DNA from: Sinohyriopsis cumingii | Lineage: Eukaryota > Mollusca > Bivalvia > Unionida > Unionidae | NCBI GenBank assembly: GCA_028554795.2 | Contig: CM068838.1 | Coordinates: forward strand, 94,963,974 to 95,027,973 | Direction: 5' to 3' | Length of the DNA: 64,000 nucleotides | The notes under the pieces: generated by a model | What the model saw: the letters and a program-made list of their open reading frames with translations, nothing else | Databases searched by the model: none | Told to the model about the DNA's origin: nothing | Translations under genes and position numbers: made by a program | In this document: positions 1-60,303 of the stretch, piece after piece | Position numbering within the stretch: position 1 is the first letter of the stretch | Layout of the letters: each line of letters begins with the position of its first letter

Positions 1-26
1 TGAAGAAAGGAAACATCTTGCTTTAA

Positions 27-1850
27 ATAATAATAATAATAATAATAATGAGGACTTTGTATAGCGCATAATCTTTAGAAGCTCTAAGCGCTTTACAACA
101 TTAGACAACACCTATAAGATAAAAAAAAATATCATGATATGATTACAAAAACAAACACAATGAAATTAGAAAACATTAATAAACATGCTGAGAATATTTA
201 AGGTAGGAAACATTATTAGACCTTTAAGTTTATTCTTGCAGTCACAATAAGTGAGTTTTAGAGCCCTTTTGAATGTGATCACTGTGTCTTTGTGTCTAAG
301 TTCAGTGTGCAATTCATTCCACGTTGCTTTTCCCTAGTATGAAAAAAGAACGCTGTCCATATAACATTGTTTTCATAGTGGGAATAATGAGTTTACGATT
401 GTCAGAAGAGGAGCGTAAGTATCATGCTGATGTGTACCCATGGGTGAGGTCGGATAGGTATGTTGGACTAGAGTCCCACAGTGACACGTAGCACAGAGAA
501 CAAATTTTGTGTTTGATTCTGGATCGAATGGATAGCCAGTGTAGGGTATCGAGCAGCGGGGAGGTGTGCTCTGATCGTGGTACTCTAAGTATAATCCGAG
601 CAGCTGAACTTTATGAAGTTTCTGGAGCAGATATTGCGATGAACCAGACGGAGCTGAGTTATAATAGTCCAGTCTTGAAAGTACTAATGGACACACGTGT
701 TTTAGTGGTATCAACTGAAAGATATTTGCGAATTGAGCTGATGCGTCTCAGCTCAAGATATGCAGCCTTGCATATGTTCATGACATGTTGGTGCAATGTA
801 AGAGTACTGTTCAGAGTAAGACCTAGGTTTCATATTGATTGTGTGAATTTAACGTTGGTGTTGCCGATATTCATTGTTTGAGTTGGTAAAGGATGTGAAT
901 GAGAAAGTCTTTTTGTTGTAATCAGAATGGTCTCAGTTTTATCATTGTTCATCTGCAGCTTGTTACATGTCATCCATGATTTCACATCAGAAATGCAACT
1001 CTCTACATCTTGGATGGTAGCATCAACTTCAGTTGGGTGGCTAGATTTGAATATTTGGGTGTCGTCAGAGTACAATTGGTGAGACACTGGATGAGGATCT
1101 ATGACACTTGAGGGCGACTGAGTGCACAGAATGAAGAGCACAGTTCCAAGAACAGACCCCTGTGGAACACCACAACATAGATCAACTGGGCTGGAGTGTA
1201 TTCCATTTGCAGATACAATTTGTGTCCTGTTGACCAAGTATGACATGAACCACAGTAAGGCTGTATCATGAATGCCAAATACATGCTGGAGACGGTGAAG
1301 TAATATATCATGGTCTATTGTGTCAAATGCTGTAGACAAATCAAGGAGGATGAGGACTGTAATCTTTCCGCTATCCAACGCAGAGAGAATGTCATTAACT
1401 ACTTTTAGAAGAGTAGTTTCAGTACTGTGGCAAGGACGATATGCAGATATGTGGATTGTACATTGCTAAAATGACTGTTTAAATTTAGATGAGATACAAG
1501 CTGGGATAGAACAACCTTTTCTAAGATTTGTTTTATACGAATGGGAGATTAGAAACTGGGCAGTAGTTCTTTAAATCGTTATGGTCTAGTGTTGGTTTCT
1601 TCAGCAGAGGCTTTAGAATGGCAGTTTTGAAAAATGATGAGAGAGAGGTATAACATCAGTTAGTGAAGGCAATACTGGATCTAAGCACTCAATCAGCAGT
1701 GATGTTGGAATTGGATAAAGTTCACTTGACTTTGGTGCACTCTTCATCAGGATTGTACATACGAAATCCATAGAGACAGGTTCAAATGCTGCTAATATTT
1801 GCCACCCAAATTCGGTATCCCAACTGTATGGTGACGACGATGACGATGCT
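27..1850 (-). mobile_element. CR1/L2-type non-LTR retrotransposon, 5'-truncated, inactive
   Basis: Read on the minus strand this is the reverse-transcriptase half and 3' end of a LINE. The longest open stretch (1378 down to 830) carries LDLSTAFDTIDHDILLHRL (RT motif A), GVPQGSVLGTVLF (motif B region) and YSDDTQIF (the Y-x-D-D active site, with Ser at x). Upstream, near 1500-1800, broken frames still resemble the region before motif A. The C-terminal part lies in another frame at 714-373 (SRLDYYNSAPSGSSQYLLQK). The 3' end is an (ATT)n tail, visible as (AAT)n at 27-50 on the plus strand. Stops and frameshifts separate the blocks, so it is dead. The same family recurs at 52175-53047 in opposite orientation. 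The clade is judged from motifs only. Confidence 0.85.
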
Positions 1851-1894
1851 GAATAATTACTGATTAATTGTTTTACCGTTCAGTCTGCTTAGTT

Positions 1895-2770
1895 GGTTCC
1901 AGAGGAAAAGTCATGGAAACGACTACGGTTGGAATTTGTTGAAGAGATACAACGCAGTTGTGTTGAATAAGGACACGGTCGATTGTGGAATATTAAAAAC
2001 GATTATAAGGATATTATCTCGGTTGATATAGGTGCATGTTATCCTGGCACTTTTCTTGGAATGGGAGTATATTGTAAATGCTTTGAGACATTTGGACACC
2101 CAACACAGAGTTGCGATAAACTGACCTTCACCAAATTTTGACTTGACTGGATTTGATTGTATTGAGTCATTCGAATTTTCACTGAAAAACCTTCGTGTGA
2201 TTGTCGTTGTTTGCTTTGGAAAACATTTTAGCGCACACGGCTGGGCTCCAATATTTGTATTACGATATAATCTTGATGTAAAAATAGTGATATCGTTAAT
2301 TGTAAGTGAAACAATTATATCATATTGTCCGCAGAAACATGTTTGGTTATCAGAACAAAATAAATATTCTGATGATGAAAATGCTGATATAACTGATTTT
2401 GAGAAATCATGGCAGAAATATAATTGGCAAATTTACGCAAGGATGATAATATGATCATACACGGCATTATACAAGATTAATTATAGATGATGCTGAACTC
2501 GATTTTATAACTAATGATACAACGTAGAGAAATATGTTAATAAGTCGAAGTAATGTTAATTTATCGGACGGAACTAAATTAGGTACAGTTGTGAGTTGCA
2601 CGTTTGGTAAGTCACCGCAGTTTACTCATAAGATCTTCAATGCTCGGGCATGTTTCGATAAATTTATTATCGATGATAAACAGATTTCCTGATGCCGATG
2701 TTAGAGTCGCCACAGATTCATTTTATATCAATCAAAAATACAGGATTGCTAGAATAACTACCTATCGACG
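1895..2770 (+). pseudogene. Family-B DNA polymerase remnant (N-terminal part missing)
   Basis: A protein-primed-type family-B polymerase would copy the element's DNA. About 2001-2066 reads through DIISVDIGACYPGTFLGMG, matching motif A of PolB (Asp followed by a Tyr-Pro-containing loop). A frameshift then leads to 2143-2454, which contains WFGKHF-like and WAP-like segments (seen here as CFGKHFSAHGWAP) followed by a 'vWLSEQ' strand. About 2691-2763 reads DADVRVATDSFYIN, in the place of the motif C D-T-D-S signature (here A-T-D-S). At least three frame changes and several stops separate these blocks. Exonuclease motifs are not seen; the sequence to the left is a LINE. The helicase remnant follows without a clear intergenic gap, suggesting one original polyprotein. 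Confidence 0.65.
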
Positions 2771-2884
2771 CTAATGCATCATGGGGCGAATTGAGAATAA
2801 AATAAAAAAACATACTTAGTTATTGTGATACTGCCGACGTTGAAATGAAGAATATTTATTTTAAAAAATAATCAAATATCAAAA

Positions 2885-3905
2885 TTGTTTTCAGCACCAT
2901 CGGTATATGATCCTGAGACCAGATGTAAGGCTGTTTATCTCAATGGACCGGGAAGTTCTGGTTAAACAACACCTGTGATCGAATTATTTCTTGGACTTGA
3001 TATAATTGTGTTAACCCCTACACATAGCCTCGGCATAGAAATGAACAAACGAGGTGTTAAATATCATACTTATCATAGCTTCTTCTGATGGAAGGGAGAT
3101 ACAAAGATTCCTGACTGAATGGGTGAAAAATATATTCCAAAGATTTTTATGGGATGAAATATCTATCTATCTATCTATCTATCTTTCTGTCTATCTATCT
3201 ATCTATCTATAAAGATAGATAGATATATAGTTTCGCTAGAGACACTAAAAATATTTCTTGTTTGTTTGTTGACAAAACATACTGCTGTTATCATGTGTGG
3301 CGATCATAGTCAACCGCCACCATCTGTTAAATTGTCTCCATATGAATGGCTGAAAAGTTTGTGGATTATTATGAGATAACTGGTGATCATTGAGCGCTTG
3401 ATCCAGAATTAAGAATGCTTAAGAAATTAATCCGACTACAGCCAAATAAACTTCAGTGTGAAATAATGCACGAAATAATTTCAGAAACTCCTATGAACAA
3501 CTTTTGGAATTTAGATGATTTGATAGTTGCAAGCTGTACGATAGTTCGTGACTTTAACAATAATTATTTCTGTTACATAAAGTAACATTTGAAAATCTAC
3601 ACCTTCCATTTGTGTTATCGCGCAGCAAATACTGGACGGCAAAAATATCGACGTTGAAATTCCAGGTTGTGGTAGTAAACAAAATCTTATGTTAAATGAT
3701 ATTGTTTTAATTCAGTGTTTCTGAGAGAGCGTTTACGATGGACAAACATCCGTGCACGTTAAGGTATGCTAAAACGATTCATTCGTCACAAGGATTAACT
3801 ATTTCGGATATTAATATTCGGATTGTCGACGATCGAATTGAATGGTCAAATTTAGTTTATCTAGAAGTTACTACATTCAGAAGAATAATTCAGTTCGGAG
3901 GGTTA
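2885..3905 (+). pseudogene. SF1 (Pif1/RecD-like) helicase remnant
   Basis: An NTP-dependent DNA helicase continues from the PolB remnant. The P-loop strand VYLNGPGSSG sits at about 2933-2962, but the next codon, where the invariant lysine belongs, is TAA (2963-2965), followed by TT. Next comes IIVLTPTHSLGIEMNKRGVK (about 3002-3061), fitting motif Ia, then TYHSFF. A (TATC)n array interrupts the gene at 3165-3235. Beyond it MCGDHSQPPP (about 3293-3322) fits motif III (G-D-x-x-Q-x-P). IHSSQGLTISD (about 3777-3809) fits motif V/VI of SF1 helicases, and WSNLVYLE follows. Multiple stops and frameshifts remain. Assignment to SF1 is firm on motif order; the subfamily is not. Confidence 0.72.
3165..3235 (+). 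repeat. (TATC)n microsatellite inside the helicase remnant
   Basis: An imperfect TATC array with two variant units, followed by a short reverse-complement stretch (AGATAGATAGATA). It splits the helicase between the motif II region and motif III, so it arose or expanded after the gene lost function. Confidence 0.95.
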
Positions 3906-3985
3906 TCATAGACACCAAAGAAAATAACAAACAAAGTCAGGAAATCAACGATAATTTAGTAAAATAAAAATTTGTTATAAACAGT

Positions 3986-4195
3986 ATGACACCCAACCCC
4001 CCACAAAATAAGCGCAATTTTGACCTCGATGCTGAATTTATGATGACATTAAAGCAAAAGCAGAATAATCATTGTGCGAGTTGTACCACAATAATGTTGT
4101 GGCACTATTCAAATAATAATCGAAGACAATTTACCGCAGATAGACCTAATAGTTGTCTTGGTCATATACGCGTAACTGTGATGCTGTCCTGACGT
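3986..4195 (+). pseudogene. HNH-type nuclease domain remnant at the C-terminal end of the polymerase-helicase block
   Basis: A 68-residue open stretch directly follows the helicase remnant in the same direction. It shows a CxxC pair (Cys30, Cys33), a spacer ending in DRPNSCLGH (residues 52-60), then a strand IRVTVMLS. This is the layout of HNH/endonuclease-VII-like zinc nucleases: CxxC, then D-R-x-N...G-H, then a strand, then a second CxxC. The second CxxC falls just past the TGA at about 4190 and is not visible, so the zinc site is probably lost. A possible role is cleavage of DNA during replication or resolution, but that is inference. The link to the helicase is by adjacency and direction; a frame change separates them. 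Confidence 0.55.
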
Positions 4196-4239
4196 CGAGC
4201 CCATTCACAAAAGTGAACGCTGTGGTAATTGTGTGTCTT

Positions 4240-5230
4240 AAGGAATTACTTGTAATTGCTCACGTACAATTCCACGCTGAGGAGCAGATGACTCTAGTAC
4301 ATTGGTCTGTGGATCTTACCACACTGGAAATTTTATGTGTCGTCACAGTCCAAATATGATCAATTGATCTGTTTTTACCACCTTCAAGTTCACCATGTTC
4401 TTATAAATATCATACATTCACGTCACCTAGGTGTTGTTCTGAGAATGAATCATGCCACTGTATTGGTATATGTTTCTTTTTGTGATTACAGTGGTAGGTT
4501 TCATAGAAATTTCACGAGTAATTTCATAATTTAACGCAGCTATTACACTTGGTAGTCTTGCAAACCATTCACAAGATCACTTGTCTTTCTGAATTATTTC
4601 CTTTGCATACTGATATTGAACCAATCTCTCAGCAAGTGTTCGATTAAATTGTCCAACAATTGCCTGATTGCGATGAATTACGGTATGTCCTCGTCTGATT
4701 CTGACGTTATGTTTTTTAATCAGAGACGATACTGCACCTAGACTTTCCTTACCAGGATCAACCTGTAGTAACTAGCTATCTTAGACCACCACGTTGATAT
4801 ATTCGTTCAAACGCAGATGGAACTTCAGTTGCTTCTTTACTTGATAGTGGTTCTGCTTCTTTATATCTACTTTTAACGTTAACGACAGTCAACGCGTATT
4901 TGTATATGCGTGATTGACGTCTACCAATTTCAAGAATATCGTGTGGTAAAAACAAAATATCTTCTTGATGAGCTTTATTGGGAATGCTGACATCAATATG
5001 TGCGTAAGGTGGTGGTATATATTGTGCCATATTGCCAGTCTGCTAACCAATTTTCAGCAGCAGAATGTGTGATATTTGCTGCATCAGCGGGTTTACAAAT
5101 CGCTGCATTACCCCTCCAATATCATCTTGGGCTATAAAAAAATCGATTCCATAATAAACATCGGCACTAGTTTACTTTTCATCGCAGATTTTAGTAGGAA
5201 GCTAGCAAGGTTTTCTCTGAGAGATTAATT
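4240..5230 (-). pseudogene. Retroviral-type (RVE, DDE) integrase remnant
   Basis: The order below is on the minus strand. An N-terminal helical piece (frame around 5130-5040) is followed by the open stretch 5030-4776, with QYIPPPYAHIDVSIPNKAHQ, then EDILFLPHD (first catalytic Asp) and KYALTVVNVKSRYKEAEPL (RVE core strand). After a frameshift, VDPGKESLGAVSSLIKK (about 4763 downward) gives the second Asp. FNRTLAERL (about 4650) follows the position where the catalytic Glu belongs; here that residue is Gly in IVGQFNRT. The C-terminal portion at about 4440-4240 (GELEGGKNRS, then QRGIVREQLQVIP) looks like the small SH3/chromo-like tail of this integrase group. It points toward the HNH gene. Stops and frameshifts plus the Glu loss make it inactive. 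Confidence 0.75.
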
Positions 5231-5249
5231 TTTATGGAATTTAAAGACT

Positions 5250-5629
5250 TTAACGTTTTATCAACTTCACATCTGTAATATGTCGTTGTTGTAAATTTTT
5301 ATTTTTATGCACGATATCATGAACGCAGCACGCTTGGTCAATCGCATTTTTTGGATACTCTCCAGGTCTTGGTTGAATTTTCTCGTCAAGTCGGATATCA
5401 TGTCGGGTTCCAGGACAACAATAATTATATCCAGGAAGATGTTTTTCTCCTGTGAAATTAGCCCATGGAGCTTCTGGTAATTTTTGCAGTGAAGCATGGA
5501 TATCACCACCAGACACTTTTTGTCCGGAGATAAAGCTATATTTGCTTGTACGACATTGTCATTCACTTGTCTGTAAGTACGCGCTTTTTTATTTTTTTGT
5601 GCTCTGCATCGAACATAAAATAAACCCAT
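5250..5629 (-). pseudogene. Phospholipase-A2-like protein with N-terminal Cys-containing segment
   Basis: The start is ATG at 5629 (MGLFYVRCRAQKNKKARTY...). The frame shifts near 5516, and the PLA2-like block runs 5516-5250. It contains LPGYNYCCPGTRHDIRL, in the place of the PLA2 calcium-loop segment (Y-x-x-x-G-P-G-T in this group; one Gly is Cys here), then AIDQACCVHDIVHK with the catalytic His-Asp pair, and RHITDVKLI with the distal Asp. This is the VP1u/PLA2-like fold seen in parvoviral minor capsid proteins and in PLA2-like proteins of adintovirus-type elements. In those systems it acts on membranes during entry; no such role is claimed for this broken copy. It lies just upstream of the integrase on the same strand. 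The N-terminal segment keeps one Cys of an apparent zinc pair. Confidence 0.65.
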
Positions 5630-5652
5630 ATTATTTATTATATTTCTACAAC

Positions 5653-6335
5653 ATGGATATCATTGATTTCTCATCGCGCGAAAGCAGGAGCCAGGCAAGC
5701 ATCATCCAGCGCTAACAATTTATATCAGAGCAATTAGCATAGGTCCATCTGGGTCTGTAAGACGCAATTGCTGCTTAATCTGATAATGAGATAGCTCACG
5801 AGATAACTTATATTTAGTTGCACCATCTGTAGATGATCAGATGCTACGATGGACTTAACTATTTTAATAAAAATGTGAAATTATTAGACAAGGATGGTAA
5901 TGATATTTATTTTATCACCGGTATTGATGAAGCCCTATCTGTAGATGATCTCGATAGATTTATTAATAATCTCGTAGTATACGATGATGTAATGCTGAAA
6001 AAAAAAATCAAATCATGCTCGGATATTTTATCAATGCAGGCACAAAACACAAACAGGATTTGTTACGCAGCGATATACACAAATACCTAAAGTGATCCTC
6101 AATAACGCCAATATTTTATTTGTTTAATAGAATTTATACACATACTCTGCGAAACATTCATCAGACTTGGTGTTCAAGGGATATGGATATGATTAATTAA
6201 AAAAATTTCTTTTCACGTTCGCATGCTACCCAACACGGATTTATCACAATACATTTACATGATCATCGATCGCAATATCGTGTATATCTTGATAAAAATA
6301 TTCGGTTAAGAGAAAGCAGCAGGGCAGGTGATGAT
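5653..6335 (+). pseudogene. FtsK/A32-type genome-packaging ATPase remnant
   Basis: The start is ATG at 5653 (MDIIDFSSRESRS). The segment IYIRAISIGPSGS at about 5717-5756 is the strand and first half of a Walker A loop. One base appears missing at about 5757, so the Lys-Thr codons fall out of frame, and a TAG follows shortly after. The open stretch 5833-6090 carries DKDGNDIYFITGIDEALSVD and then NNLVVYDDVML, a Walker B strand (Asp51/Asp52 of that stretch). Downstream the frame shifts again at about 6040-6100 but still shows VILNNANILF-like and C-terminal beta segments to about 6330. Packaging ATPases of this type are found in Polintons, adintoviruses and many dsDNA viruses. Divergent from the PLA2 gene by about 25 bp. 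Confidence 0.68.
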
Positions 6336-6339
6336 TAAA

Positions 6340-7480
6340 ATTTAGTGTCAGGGTAAATAAACAAACACGAATAAAATTTGAAAACACAAGTGTAAAAATT
6401 AAGTAACAAAATGAGCTAACTGAAGTAGAAAAATCTCGGTCGGTTAGAGGCTTCGGTTTGGCGTTACTGACCTTGTATTTTTAATTCACGTAGAAAGCTT
6501 TATTTTCGCAAATGGACCCTTCTAAAATGGTCTGTTCACCCTCTCTGCTGCAGAAGCGGTTATTATTCCATATGTAGGATAACTTTCATACAAGTTTATT
6601 TATATTCAATTTTCTCATGCTGAATGTTTATCACATTTTCCGGTGCACTCGTGCACATTAAGGAAATTCGGTTTTAGACTGACATAACATTTACAAGCTT
6701 GCTTAGTATATCAGTTATGTTTCTAACGATTACTGAAATTAGAAATTATTTCCAAACAGTGGGAACCATGTCCACAGTCACGATGTAAGCCAAGTAACTG
6801 AAATGATTTATGATTTTTTAACTGAAAATATTATTTGCGTTATTCTACGCCAAATACCAGCAATTATGTGAGCCTCAACCATTTGTAAATTATTTTATTT
6901 TTGTGCTCCATAAATGTAATATTTTTATGGGTATGGTATTCATCTGAAAGGAAACTAGAGGAGAGTGGGAAAATATCTTTGCATCAGAAAATGATTGTGT
7001 TTGAACCAGTGTTGTGAAGTGATTGTTATTCCATAGTTATATAGAATATATTTTTATACATGTTTGTTTATGCTACAAATTTTAAGACTTAATTTTTATC
7101 AGATTTTCCCAATGACTCCTCCAACTGTTTTTGGACTGACACAAAATTTTACCTGCCTACTAAATAAATGATTTTTTTTAGCAATTACTGAAATTAAAAA
7201 CTACACATTTTGTTTCCAAACAGTGGGAAACATGTCTCAAGGTCAGGCTGGAAGCTAAAGTAACTGAATTGATTTATGGTGTATTAATTGTAATGGATAA
7301 TAGTATTATTCCTACCCCCGAACCAGAAAAAATAAATATAAACAAGTTTGTTCAATTTATTTATCTAAATACTGCATATTTATTTCAATGGCATATTTCT
7401 TTATTTCATTAAATGTAAACCTCAACTTTACAAACTTACTGGTTTTAACAACAGAAAATCATAAATATAATAACATTTAC
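6340..7480. repeat. Non-coding AT-rich stretch with an imperfect direct duplication
   Basis: About 6620-6830 and 7090-7290 are related in direct orientation. Both contain ATTACTGAAATTA followed by a TTTCCAAACAGTGGGAA block and a GTAACTGAA-TGATTTATG block, with many differences elsewhere. Spacing is about 470 bp. No convincing reading frame is seen here. Confidence 0.6.
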
Positions 7481-7929: not shown

Positions 7930-8900
7930 GAGACTTTATATCAGATATGACAATTTGGTGAATGGTCTAAAACACTTCAAATGCTGCCATAAATTGCCCA
8001 CAATCAATTCAACTTCAAATTTCATCGACATCAAAATCTCACAGACATTGTATGTAAAAGTCCATATGGGCATCCACATAATCATGTTAATGTTCCAGTC
8101 TCTGCCATAACCCAGTAATTTGTAGAGTGTTGTATTTTTATAAAGTCAAATGGTAGATGTTGCAGATGCCATTGGGAAGTTTCATATTTCACCAATGAAT
8201 CCCCGCAATCTATCACTGCAAGAAAAGAGTTTGATAATTTTTCAAGAACAGATATTAAATGACTTCTACAAAATGTGCGTGAGCTAATTAAAACAAAGTC
8301 ATATCTTAACTTTCATGTTCCTTCTAACTTATCCGATGATGACTATTTCTACCTTTTTGGGCTTGAAAATGAATCAATTCCCCTTACGGACTAAGATTAA
8401 ATCATGGTTCAAGAGAACAACTTGATGAAATAGCACAAATTGTACTTAAAGATGGATGCATCCACTTGGAAACTGAAGGAACTTCCAAGGATATCACTTG
8501 ATTACCTGAGTGACATCACTGTGGCCATTTATCAAGTTAAACAGGCTCCAAAGTATACAAATGAGCATTTCGCTGAGGAGGGGCAGTATGAGGTTATGGC
8601 ATGCATGGATTTGCCAGGTCTTTTATATGAAGTATTCCATGGACTCCATCATGCATGGATTTGCCAGGTCTTTTATATGAAGTATTCCATGGACTCCATC
8701 AAAGGATGGTTTTGTATCAGCAATGCTGGTGCAAGGGGTGTTGGGTGTTGTGCCCAAGTATCTAGTTTTCTATGGTTTATTGGCTGAAAAAGGTGGATAA
8801 CTGATGAGCTGGCAAAGAAATCATCACTAGTTATTCATCTTAAAGATGCATCATCTAGTCCAGAATGTGAATATGACAACGGGGACTCAACTGAGTTGTT
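7930..8900 (+). pseudogene. SWIM-type zinc-finger transposon protein remnant
   Basis: About 8280-8400 reads SDDDYFYLFGLENESIPLT. The open stretch 8440-8787 reads DITVAIYQVKQAPKYTNEHF, AEEGQYEV, then GWFCISNAGARGVGCCAQVSSFLWFIG. The last block has the shape of a SWIM finger (CxC...CxH) in proteins of invertebrate DNA transposons, with the second Cys changed to Ser and the His to Gln, so zinc binding is probably lost. An exact 50-bp tandem duplication (8601-8700) interrupts the domain in frame only by chance. Stops at about 8395 and 8788 break it further. The transposon superfamily is not determined; no terminal repeats were found. Confidence 0.5.
8601..8700 (+). repeat. Exact 50-bp tandem duplication
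   Basis: Unit 1 is 8601-8650 and unit 2 is 8651-8700; they are identical, starting ATGCATGGATTTGCCAGG. Identity against a decayed background means the duplication is recent, or is an assembly artefact. Confidence 0.95.
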
Positions 8901-9880
8901 TTTCTACACTGTGAACACTACTTTCATAAGTATTAATCTGGCTCATTTAATATTTATATGACAAATAATAATTTTGTTTAATTAAATTGTCATCCATATC
9001 ACGATGTTTCCATTATTATGGCATCTTATTTGTATGATATTATGGCTGAGAGAATGGTAATACATAACAATTGTCAGATTAAGGCCTTCCAGGACCATCA
9101 TCACTGAAAATATTATAGTACCCCACTCCCATTACTAAATGTGAAATTTAAAAAACAAATATCAGAAACTAAAAAAGCTGAAAAATACTAGTTTTGCACC
9201 ATTCCAAATCAAAATACTCGTACATGCAGATTGAAATGGTCATATATAATTCATTCAATTTATATCATCGGTAATTAATTATAATTGTTTTCTTGTGTCC
9301 CTGTTGTGCTAGTGCCCTAATCATGTGCTTTGCATTCTTAATAGATAATCTGGCAAAATACATACCACATTCATATAAATACAAAAATGTATATTTTTAA
9401 GACATACGCATTATGAATGTTACTTTTTATGTTGACCTGAATAGTTTATTTGTAATGCTTTCTATTCTCTCTTTGATGATTTTGCAGTCATTGCCAGTCA
9501 TTGCAAGTTCTTTCTGGTCACCTCCGAGTGTCTCTAAGAAGGGGTCCAAGGTCAAATACATTAAAAAAGTGACAATTACATTAACAGTTGCTCATCTCAA
9601 CCGTACAGACGACAGGAGTGTATCACCCCTAGGTCATGTTGTGGGTGGATGAGTGGGGACGTTACAATGATCAGGATTTGCTGTTAGTTTTCCTTAACTG
9701 CTACCGTTAGGTAATATATGTTCAGTGAGTGCATTTCTTTTATCAGTTGTTTCGTCGTCTCTTGCTTGCATATATTTTCATTTTAACACTTCTCTGAACC
9801 TCCAGTTATATAGAAAGCCTTACCGCGAGATATTATCATGATTCTGGCGTAGGAATACGGATAAGCATGTCGGCCTACAT
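8901..9880. other. No recognisable feature
   Basis: AT-rich sequence with only short chance frames, such as 9413-9652 on the plus strand (79 codons), which shows no motif I know. Confidence 0.6.
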
Positions 9881-9883
9881 GTA

Positions 9884-10012
9884 TAGTATACACAGGGGCT
9901 AGTATCGTTGCGTACAATTTACCTGTCATTTGTGTACCATATAATAACTACATACAGTACATGTATGACAGGTAAATTGTAAGCAACAACACGAGCCCCT
10001 TTGATAGTATAC
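9884..10012. repeat. Hairpin-forming inverted repeat (small MITE-like unit)
   Basis: The arms are 9884-9929 and 9965-10012. The left arm ends ACAATTTACCTGTCAT; the right arm begins with its exact complement, ATGACAGGTAAATTGT. Further out, AGGGGCTAGT pairs with ACGAGCCCCT and GTATAC lies at both ends. The loop is about 35 nt. This would fold into a stem of about 45 bp with a few mismatches. It could be a miniature transposon or a hairpin transcript. Confidence 0.7.
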
Positions 10013-10269: not shown

Positions 10270-10800
10270 TATATAGTTACTTTGTTATGTATATTTGATT
10301 TAATTATATCTGATTTAATTGTTTGTAAGTTTTACAAATCTTTTTATCTTTTTAAAATTTCGTTGTATGTCAAAATAATATTTGCTTAGAACTCATAGTT
10401 TTTTTTTTCAGAACATAGTTTGACCTTGATGGTTCATTTTAATAAACACCAATTGTTGACCTATCTGCTGACTTTGATTCAAAATTAGTAGCAGCCACGC
10501 AAATAAGTTCTAGTTTTATTTTAAAATGATTGGATGTTGTCGAGGTCATGATGGGACTACATGGTTTAAGATGTGAACAAGTTTTTATTTTATTTCGGGG
10601 AGTAAAATGATTGTGTTTTCCTCAGGCTCATGTTAGGCGTACGTGATATAAACACGATTACGTGACAAACACCCCTTTCGATTTCGCATCTTTGGGATTT
10701 TCGAAACTGTTTTTTAGAATTGGATATAACCTTTGTTTTGAAGACATATGCTTTTACACTGGAAAGTGTTGTGTCGTTTGGAGTTATTTCAAAAGTATTA

Positions 10801-10978
10801 ATTCTTTTTCTACTGGAGATATAGTGTGCTCATACGAAATTCTTGAAAGAGGACATCTCTTATATAAAATAATTCGGATTGCCAAAATAATTCTTTTTCT
10901 ACTGGAGATATAGTGTGCTCATACGAAATTCTTGAAAGAGGACATCTCTTATATAAAATAATTCGGATTGCCAAAACT
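10801..10978 (+). repeat. Near-exact 89-bp tandem duplication
   Basis: Unit 1 is 10801-10889 and unit 2 is 10890-10978, each beginning ATTCTTTTTCTACTGGAG. They differ only at the last few bases. No function is evident. Confidence 0.93.
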
Positions 10979-21371: not shown

Positions 21372-21501
21372 CCTGAGGAATTGGCTTCCAGTGTCTCTAC
21401 ATAATGTTGTACATAAACTATCATCAGGATGTATTGCCTGAGGAATTGGCTTCCAGTGTCTCTACATAATGTTGTACATAAACTATCATCAGGATGTATT
21501 G
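21372..21501 (+). repeat. Exact 65-bp tandem duplication inside LINE copy A
   Basis: Unit 1 is 21372-21436 and unit 2 is 21437-21501, beginning CCTGAGGAATTGGCTTCC. Copy B has a single unit at this place, so it post-dates the segmental duplication. Confidence 0.93.
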
Positions 21502-23351
21502 CCAAAATAATTAGGTCAGTACTGAATGAAATAATTTCTGACGATCAAACTGATTTGAAAAAGGAAGATACATTGGTGAAGATACAAGGATTGCATATGA
21601 TATTATGCACATTACAGAAGATTTACAAATAGTTTATTTCTTTTGATTAATTTTGAAAAATCATTAGATTCTATTTCATGTATATGTATTCCTAATGTTC
21701 TTACTTTTTAAAATTTCGAGCCACGTATAAGGCACTGGGCTAAAAAAATCATTTGAATATCTCATTGGCAATTTCACAAAATGGTTTTCTTTCAGAATTG
21801 TTCAAAATTTCCCGAAGTTGTCGGGAGGGCCATCCAATATACCCATATCTCTTCTTATTATGTGCAGAAATATTGTCCATACTATTAAAGAATAATAAAA
21901 AGTAAAGGTATTAACTTAAAGGAAACATAATATTTACTGTGACAGTTTGCAGATGACACTATTTTAATTCTTGATGGCTCTTTTGAATCCTTGGAATCCT
22001 CTGTTGAAATATTGCGCTTCTTTGCGAGGGTTTCGGGACAGAAACTGAACATTGCCAAAGCAAAAGCATTTTGGATACTAAGCAAGAAGTACAATGCAGA
22101 AGCATTTCATCACAGTTTAAAGTTACAGTGGGTGACTGAATTTACATGAATGAGCATGCAGATTCTTCTGGATTTGATATAATGGTATAAAAAAAAATTA
22201 AAAATAAAACAGAAATGATTAAAACTTGTTTAAACATTGGAAAAAGCAATTCTTAACACCGGCTGGTAAAATGACAGTTCTGAAATCCTTAATTATTCTA
22301 AAGTTTAATCGTTTGTTCATCTCATTGCCACATCCTCTGCAAACTTTAATCAGATAATTAAATTAATGATTTTAAAACTTTTATATGGAAATGAAAAGCG
22401 AATAAGTTATGATTCAAACTTTTTTTTAAAAGTGGTATGGCGATGATGGATATTGATAAAATTGTATTAGCTTTCAAAAGAACGTTGATTTCTAGAATTC
22501 TTCTACCTCACAGAAAATTGAATAATTTATTTGAATATGAATTATGCGTGATTAGAAACCTGTTCGTACTAGGAGATACAAATGTGATTACTTTATCCAA
22601 AAAAGCAACAGATGCTTTTTGGCGTGATGTTTTACTGGCATGGAAGCTGTTACTAGAGAAATTTATACCACGAACAGGGGAATATGTTATTAAAACAAGT
22701 TTATGGATGAACATCAATATAAGGGTGAACAGGGAATCCATTTTCTATAAGCAATGGTTTGAACATAATGTCATCGAAGTTGGTGATATGCTTAATAAGT
22801 AGAGACCTATGATCGACTTTGAAAGATTTAAAGCTATATATGGTCTAAATACAATGGAATAATTCAGTGGGAAAAGTCCTTGTGTAAAAGGTAACAGTTA
22901 GATAAATGAACACTGGTCAGACCATGTATCCATTTCCATTTAGAAATTGTATTTCATAGGAATAAAGGATGTAAAGACTATTATGATTTATTTTAAATAA
23001 AAGATGTGTGAAACAAACTCATAAAAATAAATGGAATTACATTTTTAATCTGAATATGGATATATAGTCTGACAATTATGCTAAAGCTTTTAAAATAACA
23101 AGAAACTCAAAATTACAATGGTTTCAATTTATATTACTCATATAATTTTACCAATGAATTCTTTTTTGTATAAAATAAAATTGTCCAGCACTGATAAATG
23201 TACTTTGTGTAAACATGACCCGGTAACATTACTCCATTTGTTTTGAGAAAATAATGTGAAAATCAAGCTGTGGAATGAAGTGATTCTTTGGATTTAGAAT
23301 AAAGTGAATAAAGATAATGTGCCAAGTGCTAAATCTGTTATATTAAGATAT

Positions 23352-52174: not shown

Positions 52175-53047
52175 CCATATATATTCTGATTACAACACAA
52201 ACACTTTCTCATTCACATCCTTTACCTCACACAATCAGTACGAAACCTAGGTGTTACTGCTCTCACACTGCACCAACATGCCATAAAGATATGCAAGGCT
52301 GCATATCTTGAGCTGAGACGCATCAGCTCCATTCGCAAATATCTTTCAGTTGATGTCACTAAAACACTTGTGTGTTAATTATTACTTTCAATACTGGGCT
52401 ATTGTAACTCAGTTCTGTCTGGTTCATCTCAATATCTACTCCAAAAACTTCAAAAAGTTAGAAACACAGCTGCTCAAATCATACTTAGAGTACTACAATC
52501 AGAGTTCACCTCCCCGCTCCTCTGTACCCTACACTGGCTCTCCATTCAATCCAGAATCAAGCACAAAATTTGTTCTCTCTGCTACGTTTCATTGACTGAC
52601 TCCAGTCCAACATACCTATCCGACCTCACCTATGTGTACACACCAGCAAGATACGTACGCTCCTCTTCTGACAATTGTATACTCGTTATTCCCACTATGA
52701 AAACAAAGTCATATGGACAGTGTTCTTTTGCCAGGGCCCAGGGTCAAGCAATGTGGAATGAATTGCCCACTGAATGTAGACACAAAAACACAGTGAACCA
52801 TTCTACAGTGCTCTTAAAACTCACTTATGTCGACTACAAGACCAAACTAAAAGACCTAACAATATTTCCTACCTTAAATATTTTCAGTATTTTTTTTTTT
52901 TTCTGTTTTCTAATTTAATAGTGTTTGTTTTTGTAATCATATCATTTTGTACGTTTTATGTTATATGAGTTGTCTAATGTTGTAAAGAGTTTAGAACTTA
53001 TAAGGATTATGCGGTATACAAAGGCTTCATTAGTATTATTATTATTA
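52175..53047 (+). mobile_element. CR1/L2-type LINE 3' end, second copy
   Basis: Same family as 27-1850, here on the plus strand and truncated after the RT active site. Frames read TLSHSHPLPH (matching LSHSHPLPTQ in the first copy), SPTYLSDLTYVYTPARYVRS, then NCILVIPTMKTKSYGQCSFA and AQGQAMWNELPTEC, the classic C-terminal domain of CR1/L2/Crack-type elements. The 3' UTR (GATTATGCGGTATACAAAGG) matches the first copy's GATTATGCGCTATACAAAGT, followed by (ATT)n. Frameshifts are present. Confidence 0.85.
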
Positions 53048-59850: not shown

Positions 59851-60303
59851 TTACATTATGCAGCCCTTAGCACTGGGAGGAGTAAACGGTGGACAACATT
59901 TTGCCCATTTCTTGCTCTTCAGCTCTGTGTAACACCAATATGTTGCGGAGTGCTTAGAATATCTGTGAGAACCACACGGATGCTTTGGATCACAACTTTG
60001 TTCATTTTCAGCCGAATAACTAGGTTCATTACAAAATTCCCATGTGTTTCCAGAGGTGCAAGTCAAGCGACTTATATGGTAATTATCGTGAAATGAGCAC
60101 TGTCCACTGCAGCAATATTCCCAATTATTACTGTCATCTATGTAACACCACCTGTAGTTTTGTCCGTGAAATCCGCACTCCATGCCAGTCCGACAGTTAG
60201 TGTTACCTGCGGTATACAAGTAGCGAAACGCAGTTTCTGTTTGAATAACGTGGAGTGAACAAGCAGCACTTTGGCAAGTAGATGTATAATATAGTGCATG
60301 ATG
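59851..60303 (-). CDS. Cysteine-rich secreted-type protein, terminal exon, copy B (open)
   Basis: A minus-strand exon, open from 60303 to the stop at 59851-59853. A pyrimidine-rich tract ending ...TTAG precedes CATCATGC at 60303, the same acceptor position as in copy A; an alternative AG lies at 60314-60315. The mature region has two modules. Module 1: MECGFHGQNYRWCYID, NNWEYCC, a further Cys pair, LTCTSG. Module 2: HPCGSHRYSKHSATYWCYTE, KKWAKCCPP, ending GC near the C terminus. The shared pattern is CG-x-HG/SH...Y-x-WCY...W-x-x-CC, so likely disulfide-bonded and extracellular. No upstream exon or signal peptide was located. The family is not named here; function unknown. It is the only gene in the window with conserved residues and no break, which suggests recent constraint. 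Confidence 0.6.
   Translation of the reverse strand, partial: HHALYYTSTCQSAACSLHVIQTETAFRYLYTAGNTNCRTGMECGFHGQNYRWCYIDDSNNWEYCCSGQCSFHDNYHISRLTCTSGNTWEFCNEPSYSAENEQSCDPKHPCGSHRYSKHSATYWCYTELKSKKWAKCCPPFTPPSAKGCIM

Follow-up and report, generated by a model that had tools for sequence, protein, structure and literature searches.

A cluster of broken genes in the bivalve Sinohyriopsis cumingii raises the question of whether the remains of a family B DNA polymerase (PolB), a helicase, an HNH nuclease, an rve integrase, a phospholipase A2 (PLA2) and an A32/FtsK-type packaging ATPase derive from a single virus-like element and, if so, from which kind. The cluster lies in a stretch of 64,000 nucleotides (contig CM068838.1 of assembly GCA_028554795.2), referred to here as the window. 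An earlier note had read positions 1880..6335 of the window as six gene remnants of one self-synthesising transposon, perhaps of a distinct lineage. We interpret the cluster, with considerable confidence, as the remains of a self-synthesising virus-like element that belongs to the assemblage of Polintons and polinton-like viruses (PLVs) and that carried an OTU-like stretch, a PolB palm, a superfamily 1 (SF1) helicase and an HNH domain in a one-protein replicase; what the window preserves is the right-hand portion of one old, broken copy. It is best called a Polinton-type integrating virus carrying a Tlr1-type replicase. Gene content, gene order, the fusion, the ends, a 5-bp duplication, dispersal and the pattern of decay are directly supported by our data.

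Copies, ends and decay of the element

We searched the host genome (2.9 Gb in 1138 contigs, labelled G000) and found that window approximately 1840-6552 is the right-hand portion of one inserted copy (G000:C15:94951874-94970525) of 18,652 bases, insertions counted. The element extends beyond the interval given in the earlier note, to a right end at 6552 instead of 6335 and to a left end (G000:C15:94951874) that is 12.1 kb left of the window. With window 4000-5000 as the query there were 42 genome matches at 40 places, the window counted in, and most of them cover the full segment at 78-82% identity. This amounts to at least 40 places, as 40 of 8439 candidates were scored. A protein search of the genome with the integrase piece yielded at least 150 places (150 scored of 30,798 candidates). 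Many of these sit in open frames of up to 350 amino acids (aa), which shows that some copies or relatives are less broken than the window copy.

Nine further copies were taken from the top of the match list for window 4000-5000. Since this segment spans HNH and integrase, the presence of both in all nine copies follows from the selection. Beyond the segment, the nine copies share the gene order of the window copy. The helicase and PLA2 parts are present in all nine, the PolB part in seven (127 bp only in one) and the ATPase part in seven, and in six of the nine the match ends at a common right boundary (window 6551-6553). Sequence to the left of the long interspersed nuclear element (LINE) that lies inside the window copy also matches in all nine (373 bp only in one), although part of this sequence may be other repeats. 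In copies c8, c14 and c16, the left-flank sequence reaches window ~1840 after an interval of only about 30-50 bases. The common order and right boundary bear out the proposal of one element.

The stretches between stops in window 1850-7000 carry the motifs named in the earlier note, but they are short. Seven uninterrupted homologues from other organisms were therefore compared with the whole 64 kb window by tblastn. All matches fell within 1893-5142, in order, and when the window was shuffled 20 times in two-base blocks the same seven queries had 0 matches at E 1e-3. Together with the Pfam match of PLA2 and the match of the ATPase (Table 1), these data confirm that all six blocks are present.

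The termini of the element read AGCAGCAG...CTGCTGCT, with A as the last base of the window copy, and belong to terminal inverted repeats of about 215-240 bp whose AG ends are those expected of a Polinton or Maverick. The earlier note had proposed a search for terminal inverted repeats and capsid genes; such repeats and one capsid gene are present to the left of the window. Seven copies have both ends: the window copy, two sampled copies and four copies located by pairing repeat matches. Besides the duplication that flanks the window copy (Table 1), we found CATCA/CATCA and TGTGA/TGTGA at the sampled copies and TTTCT/TTTCT, TGCTG/TGCGG, ACCTA/ACCTC and GTTTC/GTTTC at the repeat-paired copies; the left terminus of the TTTCT copy is decayed and its position was set by alignment. 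Overall, 32 of 35 bases agree (four of the seven duplications are exact and three have one mismatch), compared with 45 of 210 bases in a control that set left against right flanks of unlike copies. A duplication of 6 bp was rejected, as the sixth base agrees in three of the seven copies on one side and in two of the seven on the other. The duplication in these seven copies is thus 5 bp, and not the 6 bp that mark Polintons and Mavericks and were reported for vertebrate Mavericks (PMC8097293).

One of the four repeat-paired copies is inserted in a LINE with flanks that look, by eye, like the LINE at window ~400-460; the two families therefore nest in each other. The trinucleotide AGC is repeated at both ends of the element. 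Such a terminal trinucleotide repeat would suit protein-primed replication of the start-and-jump-back type. The left repeat of the window copy also appears to close with its own first bases in inverted form (L029 about 1901-2130; L021 about 2496-2725), so that short inverted repeats may flank each terminal repeat.

The two inverted repeats differ by a Kimura two-parameter distance of 0.274 in the window copy and of 0.167 and 0.195 in two other copies. The window integrase contains 6 in-frame stops over 297 projected codons and changes frame between its pieces. Integrase differences between the two host subfamilies at codon positions 1, 2 and 3 number 67, 41 and 88 for the window copy and 50, 31 and 89 for copy c13. 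The differences within the family, counted over pairs, number 1952, 1614 and 1994, with no excess of the third position over the first and a mild deficit at the second. The skew towards third positions between subfamilies and the flat pattern within the family suggest divergence under selection, followed by spread and nearly neutral decay.

The replicase and its companion genes

A protein of another organism, P0125, aligns with window 1893-4189 (+), and its matches (best E 2.6e-40) cover PolB, helicase and HNH. Furthermore, other copies in the host retain open parts of this gene. In a copy of the other subfamily (L011), a single natural open reading frame (ORF) of 507 aa combines motifs A and C of PolB with the Walker A motif of the helicase, and in a second copy (L018:5169-5834) a natural 222-aa ORF contains the last helicase motifs and HNH with the stop. 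Judged from these overlapping uninterrupted ORFs of other copies and organisms, PolB, helicase and HNH is a single predicted protein. Because the three share one gene, the six remnants counted earlier, all of which are present as blocks, correspond to four genes at the locus.

Searching with the PolB-helicase ORF identified 57 homologous proteins among the 7999 candidates scored, those with the most words in common. Their named sources are Sinanodonta woodiana, Elysia crispata, Elysia marginata, Diversispora epigaea and metagenome-assembled genomes (MAGs) of Thiodiazotropha, the last of which would represent lucinid host DNA. Motif C was located by pattern in 41 of the 57 and reads ATDS in 38, VTDS, TTDS and STDS in one each, and DTDS in none. 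Host copies that reach the motif have ATDS in five of seven cases, PTDS and a decayed form otherwise, and likewise never DTDS. Motif C and Walker A stand in one protein in 29 of the 57 homologues, and HNH accompanies them in three by a strict pattern and in seven by a looser one. All homologues examined for domain order had the same arrangement: OTU-like stretch, motif A, motif C, Walker A, HNH. In the nine homologues with both an OTU-like His and motif A, the two are 140-162 aa apart, which leaves little room for an exonuclease. The helicase of another host copy matches AAA_19 (1.7e-6) and that of P0125 matches AAA_30 (6.3e-13) in Pfam, profile A3 matches PIF1-type helicase chains in the PDB (E 0.004-0.03), and in PHROGs P0125 matches a Dda-like helicase (8.3e-13) and, at residues 751-830, endonuclease VII (1.5e-12).

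This architecture resembles the Tlr1-like helicase (pPolB-S1H; pPolB, protein-primed PolB), which was described as a vOTU domain, palm and SF1 helicase with the first Asp of motif C absent, no exonuclease and a C-terminal HNH or GIY-YIG domain (PMC11071308). The protein studied here agrees in the missing first Asp of DTD and in its C-terminal HNH, and probably in domain order, with OTU identified by motif only. The same work argues that a polymerase with an altered motif C is still potentially active and suggests that the HNH and GIY-YIG domains of such proteins are parasitic homing domains (PMC11071308). The HNH domain of the present element could be either a parasitic homing domain or an end-processing nuclease. 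Unlike the Tlr1-like helicases of PLVs, Tetrahymena Tlr1 and transpovirons (PMC11071308), this replicase is found in a 2.9 Gb genome, has mollusc relatives and is accompanied by an animal-Polinton-like integrase and PLA2. OmPLV of Oxyrrhis marina is similar in that an SF1 helicase and pPolB form one protein and in that it is endogenised and fragmented; however, its helicase is N-terminal and its exonuclease complete (PMC12721341), whereas here the palm is followed by helicase and then HNH. Cryptophyte and other PLVs also have HNH fused to a helicase, and in one cluster an rve integrase is adjacent, but their HNH is reported as N-terminal rather than C-terminal (PMC12220804). Phage-like fibres, free HNH_3 genes and N-terminal HNH-helicase fusions are on record for PLVs (PMC12220804).

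Two observations concern the neighbourhood of the replicase. A free HNH_3/NUMOD1 homing-endonuclease ORF (5.4e-12) adjoins an element copy at L018:6942-7469 (+), and a piece similar by eye is found in L025. Small cysteine-rich proteins encoded near the replicase at L018:6608-6865 (+) and L030:4699-4995 (-) look alike by eye, with DZR_2 (0.067) as the best Pfam match.

The companion genes include those expected of a Polinton or Maverick, namely an rve integrase and, by domain matches from other copies, an A32 ATPase, a cysteine protease and a double-jelly-roll (DJR) capsid. An uninterrupted 317-aa integrase ORF of another copy matches rve (9.9e-8) and no other Pfam family, with no chromodomain at E up to 0.1. 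We infer that D69, D132 and E167 of this ORF, with 34 residues between the last two, are the catalytic residues. In copy L011 one ORF (4327-5088) encodes an N-terminal DUF5679 zinc ribbon (4.9e-11) together with PLA2 (2.1e-12). A tblastn match up to window 5833 was not counted as PLA2, as it is antisense to the ATPase gene. PLA2 had no match in a large protein set; in the PDB, the PLA2 piece and alignment A2 gave apparent chance matches, and alignment A1 and the integrase ORF gave none. The natural ATPase ORF of another copy (L011:4598-5560) matches Pox_A32 (1.8e-11). Pieces that lie left of the window represent a DJR-like capsid (3.4e-8), a cysteine protease (S273R match, 8.1e-5) and a fibre (phage tail fibre match, 1e-5), and these pieces, from other copies, are matched by the window copy's own left part. 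S273R is a protein of African swine fever virus. Neither of two protease pieces matched Pfam.

The protease is a likeness to adintoviruses, which have an adenain/Ulp1-like protease. A PolB with an OTU-like stretch and an rve integrase are further points in common (definition in PMC11071296); unlike adintoviruses, the integrase ORF has no chromodomain match. With animal Polintons and Mavericks the element shares the rve integrase, A32 ATPase, cysteine protease, DJR capsid and inverted repeats starting with AG, and with insect Mavericks a PLA2 gene (PMC5803895); it differs from them in its helicase-fusion replicase and in a duplication of 5 bp instead of 6 bp (PMC8097293). The earlier note had counted PLA2 beside the integrase as part of a less usual set, but next to a Polinton integrase this gene is no rarity: PLA2 is already in print for Polintons (PMC4642659) and for insect Mavericks (PMC5803895).

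Table 1. Features of the window copy and its surroundings (window positions)
Feature	Position	Strand	Basis
End of left part of replicase gene, cut by LINE	1..25, approximate	+	Probable by-eye continuation of another copy's PolB ORF
Inserted LINE retrotransposon, foreign to the element	26..1840, approximate	-	RVT_1 7.6e-20 at 833-1465
PolB palm region, broken	1857..2770	+	tblastn with P0125 and another copy's natural ORF; motif A Asp 2025-2027, motif C ATDS 2709-2720
PIF1/RecD-like SF1 helicase, broken	2849..3908	+	tblastn; (ATCT)n tract interrupts at about 3166-3223
HNH (endonuclease VII-like), C-terminal domain of replicase	3968..4220	+	tblastn 4004-4189
rve integrase gene, broken	4205..5142	-	P0001 match 5142-4211, E 1.6e-76
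PLA2-like gene, broken	5253..5628, upper bound approximate	-	Phospholip_A2_4 4e-7 at 5253-5558
A32/FtsK-type packaging ATPase gene, broken	5653..6335, approximate	+	5667-6296 against another copy's natural ORF, E 2.3e-44
Right terminal inverted repeat	6336..6552, inner bound approximate		Opposite-strand match to L029:1902-2116, 71% over 240 columns; end common to 6 of 9 other copies
Target-site duplication, right copy	6553..6557		GAAGC; left counterpart GAAGT

Some further observations concern copies and the rest of the window. Two of the 40 places matched by window 4000-5000, on contigs C181 and C2, have like scores and are possibly a single locus. On C2, L011:1002-5583 and 8249-9997 are two element copies close by, apparently of different subfamilies, and L018 has a second, inverted copy. 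A fragment at window 52379-52918 (+) resembles, by eye, the LINE at 26-1840. At window 8600-8701, 10799-10976 and 21372-21503, units of 50, 89 and 65 bases are each present twice in tandem with 100% identity; these duplications are either recent or assembly artefacts. A cysteine-rich open frame of 150 aa at window 59851-60303 (-) may be an exon that codes for part of a secreted host protein and has no Pfam match.

Integrase relatives and alternative explanations

The integrase ORF has 4228 homologues, the best 120 of which were considered. Among prokaryote genome records we found one relative, on a contig of 5.1 kb from a bacterial MAG (L030), which we read as eukaryotic DNA. Here a like integrase (61% identity) is convergent with a conventional pPolB that has a DTDS motif C (DNA_pol_B_2, 2.1e-15). 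We built a midpoint-rooted tree of 119 integrases, comprising 117 of the best 120 (three shorter than 300 aa were dropped), the host integrase and L030. In this tree L030 and the homologue P0045 fall within a 16-member clade with a support of 0.88, and the host integrase falls outside it. The contig of P0045 equals in size (29,170) that of a fused-replicase match, P0149. In total, three contig sizes (4860, 14105 and 29170) are common to the integrase list (the best 120 of 4228) and the fused-replicase list, and these equal sizes suggest that integrase and fused replicase co-occur outside the host genome. Since L030, with a conventional pPolB, clusters with P0045, on a contig of fused-replicase size, one conventional example and the equal contig sizes point to exchange of the replicase between elements that share this kind of integrase. 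Of the gene set that the earlier note had proposed to look for in relatives, co-occurrence in other genomes covers PolB-helicase-HNH, as proteins, and, by equal contig sizes only, integrase with replicase.

Both the fused replicase and the 5-bp target duplication speak for the distinct lineage supposed in the earlier note. On balance, we lean towards a lineage of its own among the integrating DNA viruses of animals, reaching from several molluscs to a glomeromycete fungus, in which a Tlr1-type fusion replaced the Polinton polymerase, a pool of integrases is shared by module exchange and the stagger is 5 bp.

The competing explanation that survives best, and that we regard as possible though doubtful, is a true Tlr1-like PLV with a capsid and an ATPase of that clade too, with animals as one more host group and no exchange of replicases. 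Its replicase layout is that of the published Tlr1-like helicase with C-terminal HNH, and Tlr1 itself carries an rve integrase (PMC11071308). However, the integrase of L030, a conventional Polinton, clusters with P0045, whose contig matches a fused-replicase contig in size, and the host integrase lies in another clade. It is unlikely that the element is an ordinary animal Polinton, Maverick or adintovirus whose conventional, exonuclease-bearing pPolB was blurred by decay. Typical of such an element are the integrase, the A32 ATPase, the protease, the DJR capsid, the PLA2 gene and the AG...CT ends, and L030 pairs a like integrase with just such a polymerase. Nevertheless, the replicase homologues are fused to an SF1 helicase and HNH, lack DTDS throughout and leave little exonuclease room, and the duplication is 5 bp rather than 6 bp (PMC8097293). 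A conventional Maverick was rejected on the helicase-HNH fusion, the lack of DTDS and the 5-bp duplication. A domesticated locus retained for a host function is very improbable and was rejected given the in-frame stops in the integrase, the frame changes and the lack of a within-family third-position excess. Finally, a chance cluster of unrelated transposon remnants, as the badly broken window copy with its LINE might suggest when seen alone, is refuted to the point of being negligible by co-linearity of the nine sampled copies over their kept parts, target duplications at seven two-ended copies and a replicase domain order that repeats in proteins of other species.

Several points weigh against our interpretation of a Polinton-type virus with a Tlr1-type replicase. 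When ten window pieces, of which nine belong to the element and one to the LINE, were compared with Pfam, two exceeded the cut-off, the PLA2 piece and the RVT_1 piece of the LINE; PLA2 is thus the one element piece to pass, with rve at 0.16, and proof of the other blocks rests on relatives. No Pfam PolB model matches the natural PolB-helicase ORF or P0125, P0128 and P0139, and PDB searches with the replicase gave helicase-type chains only, so that the palm is a putative assignment from motifs, position and literature. The OTU-like stretch is a motif match, and Pfam gave no OTU match. No penton or minor capsid gene was identified, and the tested piece of a conserved gene left of the window had no family match. 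Furthermore, we saw neither a particle nor a transcript nor a free viral genome. IMG/VR scans with the integrase piece, the HNH piece, alignments A3, A1, A7, A8 and A5 and the PolB-helicase ORF gave no close viral relative. Two IMG/VR matches, a 12-residue chance match in a phage (L001) and a distant phage helicase (L031), were dropped.

Proposed life cycle and implications

We infer protein priming, packaging, infection and mobility for the intact element. The palm would start protein-primed synthesis at the AGC repeats of both ends, and the linear DNA would be copied without an exonuclease, with the element's own helicase unwinding ahead. The A32 ATPase would package the DNA into double-jelly-roll capsids that the cysteine protease would mature. 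A fibre-like protein and PLA2 may aid entry, with PLA2 serving membrane passage, and the rve integrase would insert the DNA with a 5-bp stagger.

The literature searched contained no report of a polymerase-helicase fusion in an animal, although a mention in Krupovic 2016 or the adintovirus paper is possible. This fusion has so far been described mainly from protist and algal viruses, and here it is found at high copy number in an animal genome. A fused replicase beside an integrase that elsewhere adjoins a conventional polymerase would argue directly that Polintons and PLVs have exchanged replicases. Furthermore, copies with both ends make the 5-bp stagger and the trinucleotide termini comparable with replicase type across genomes.

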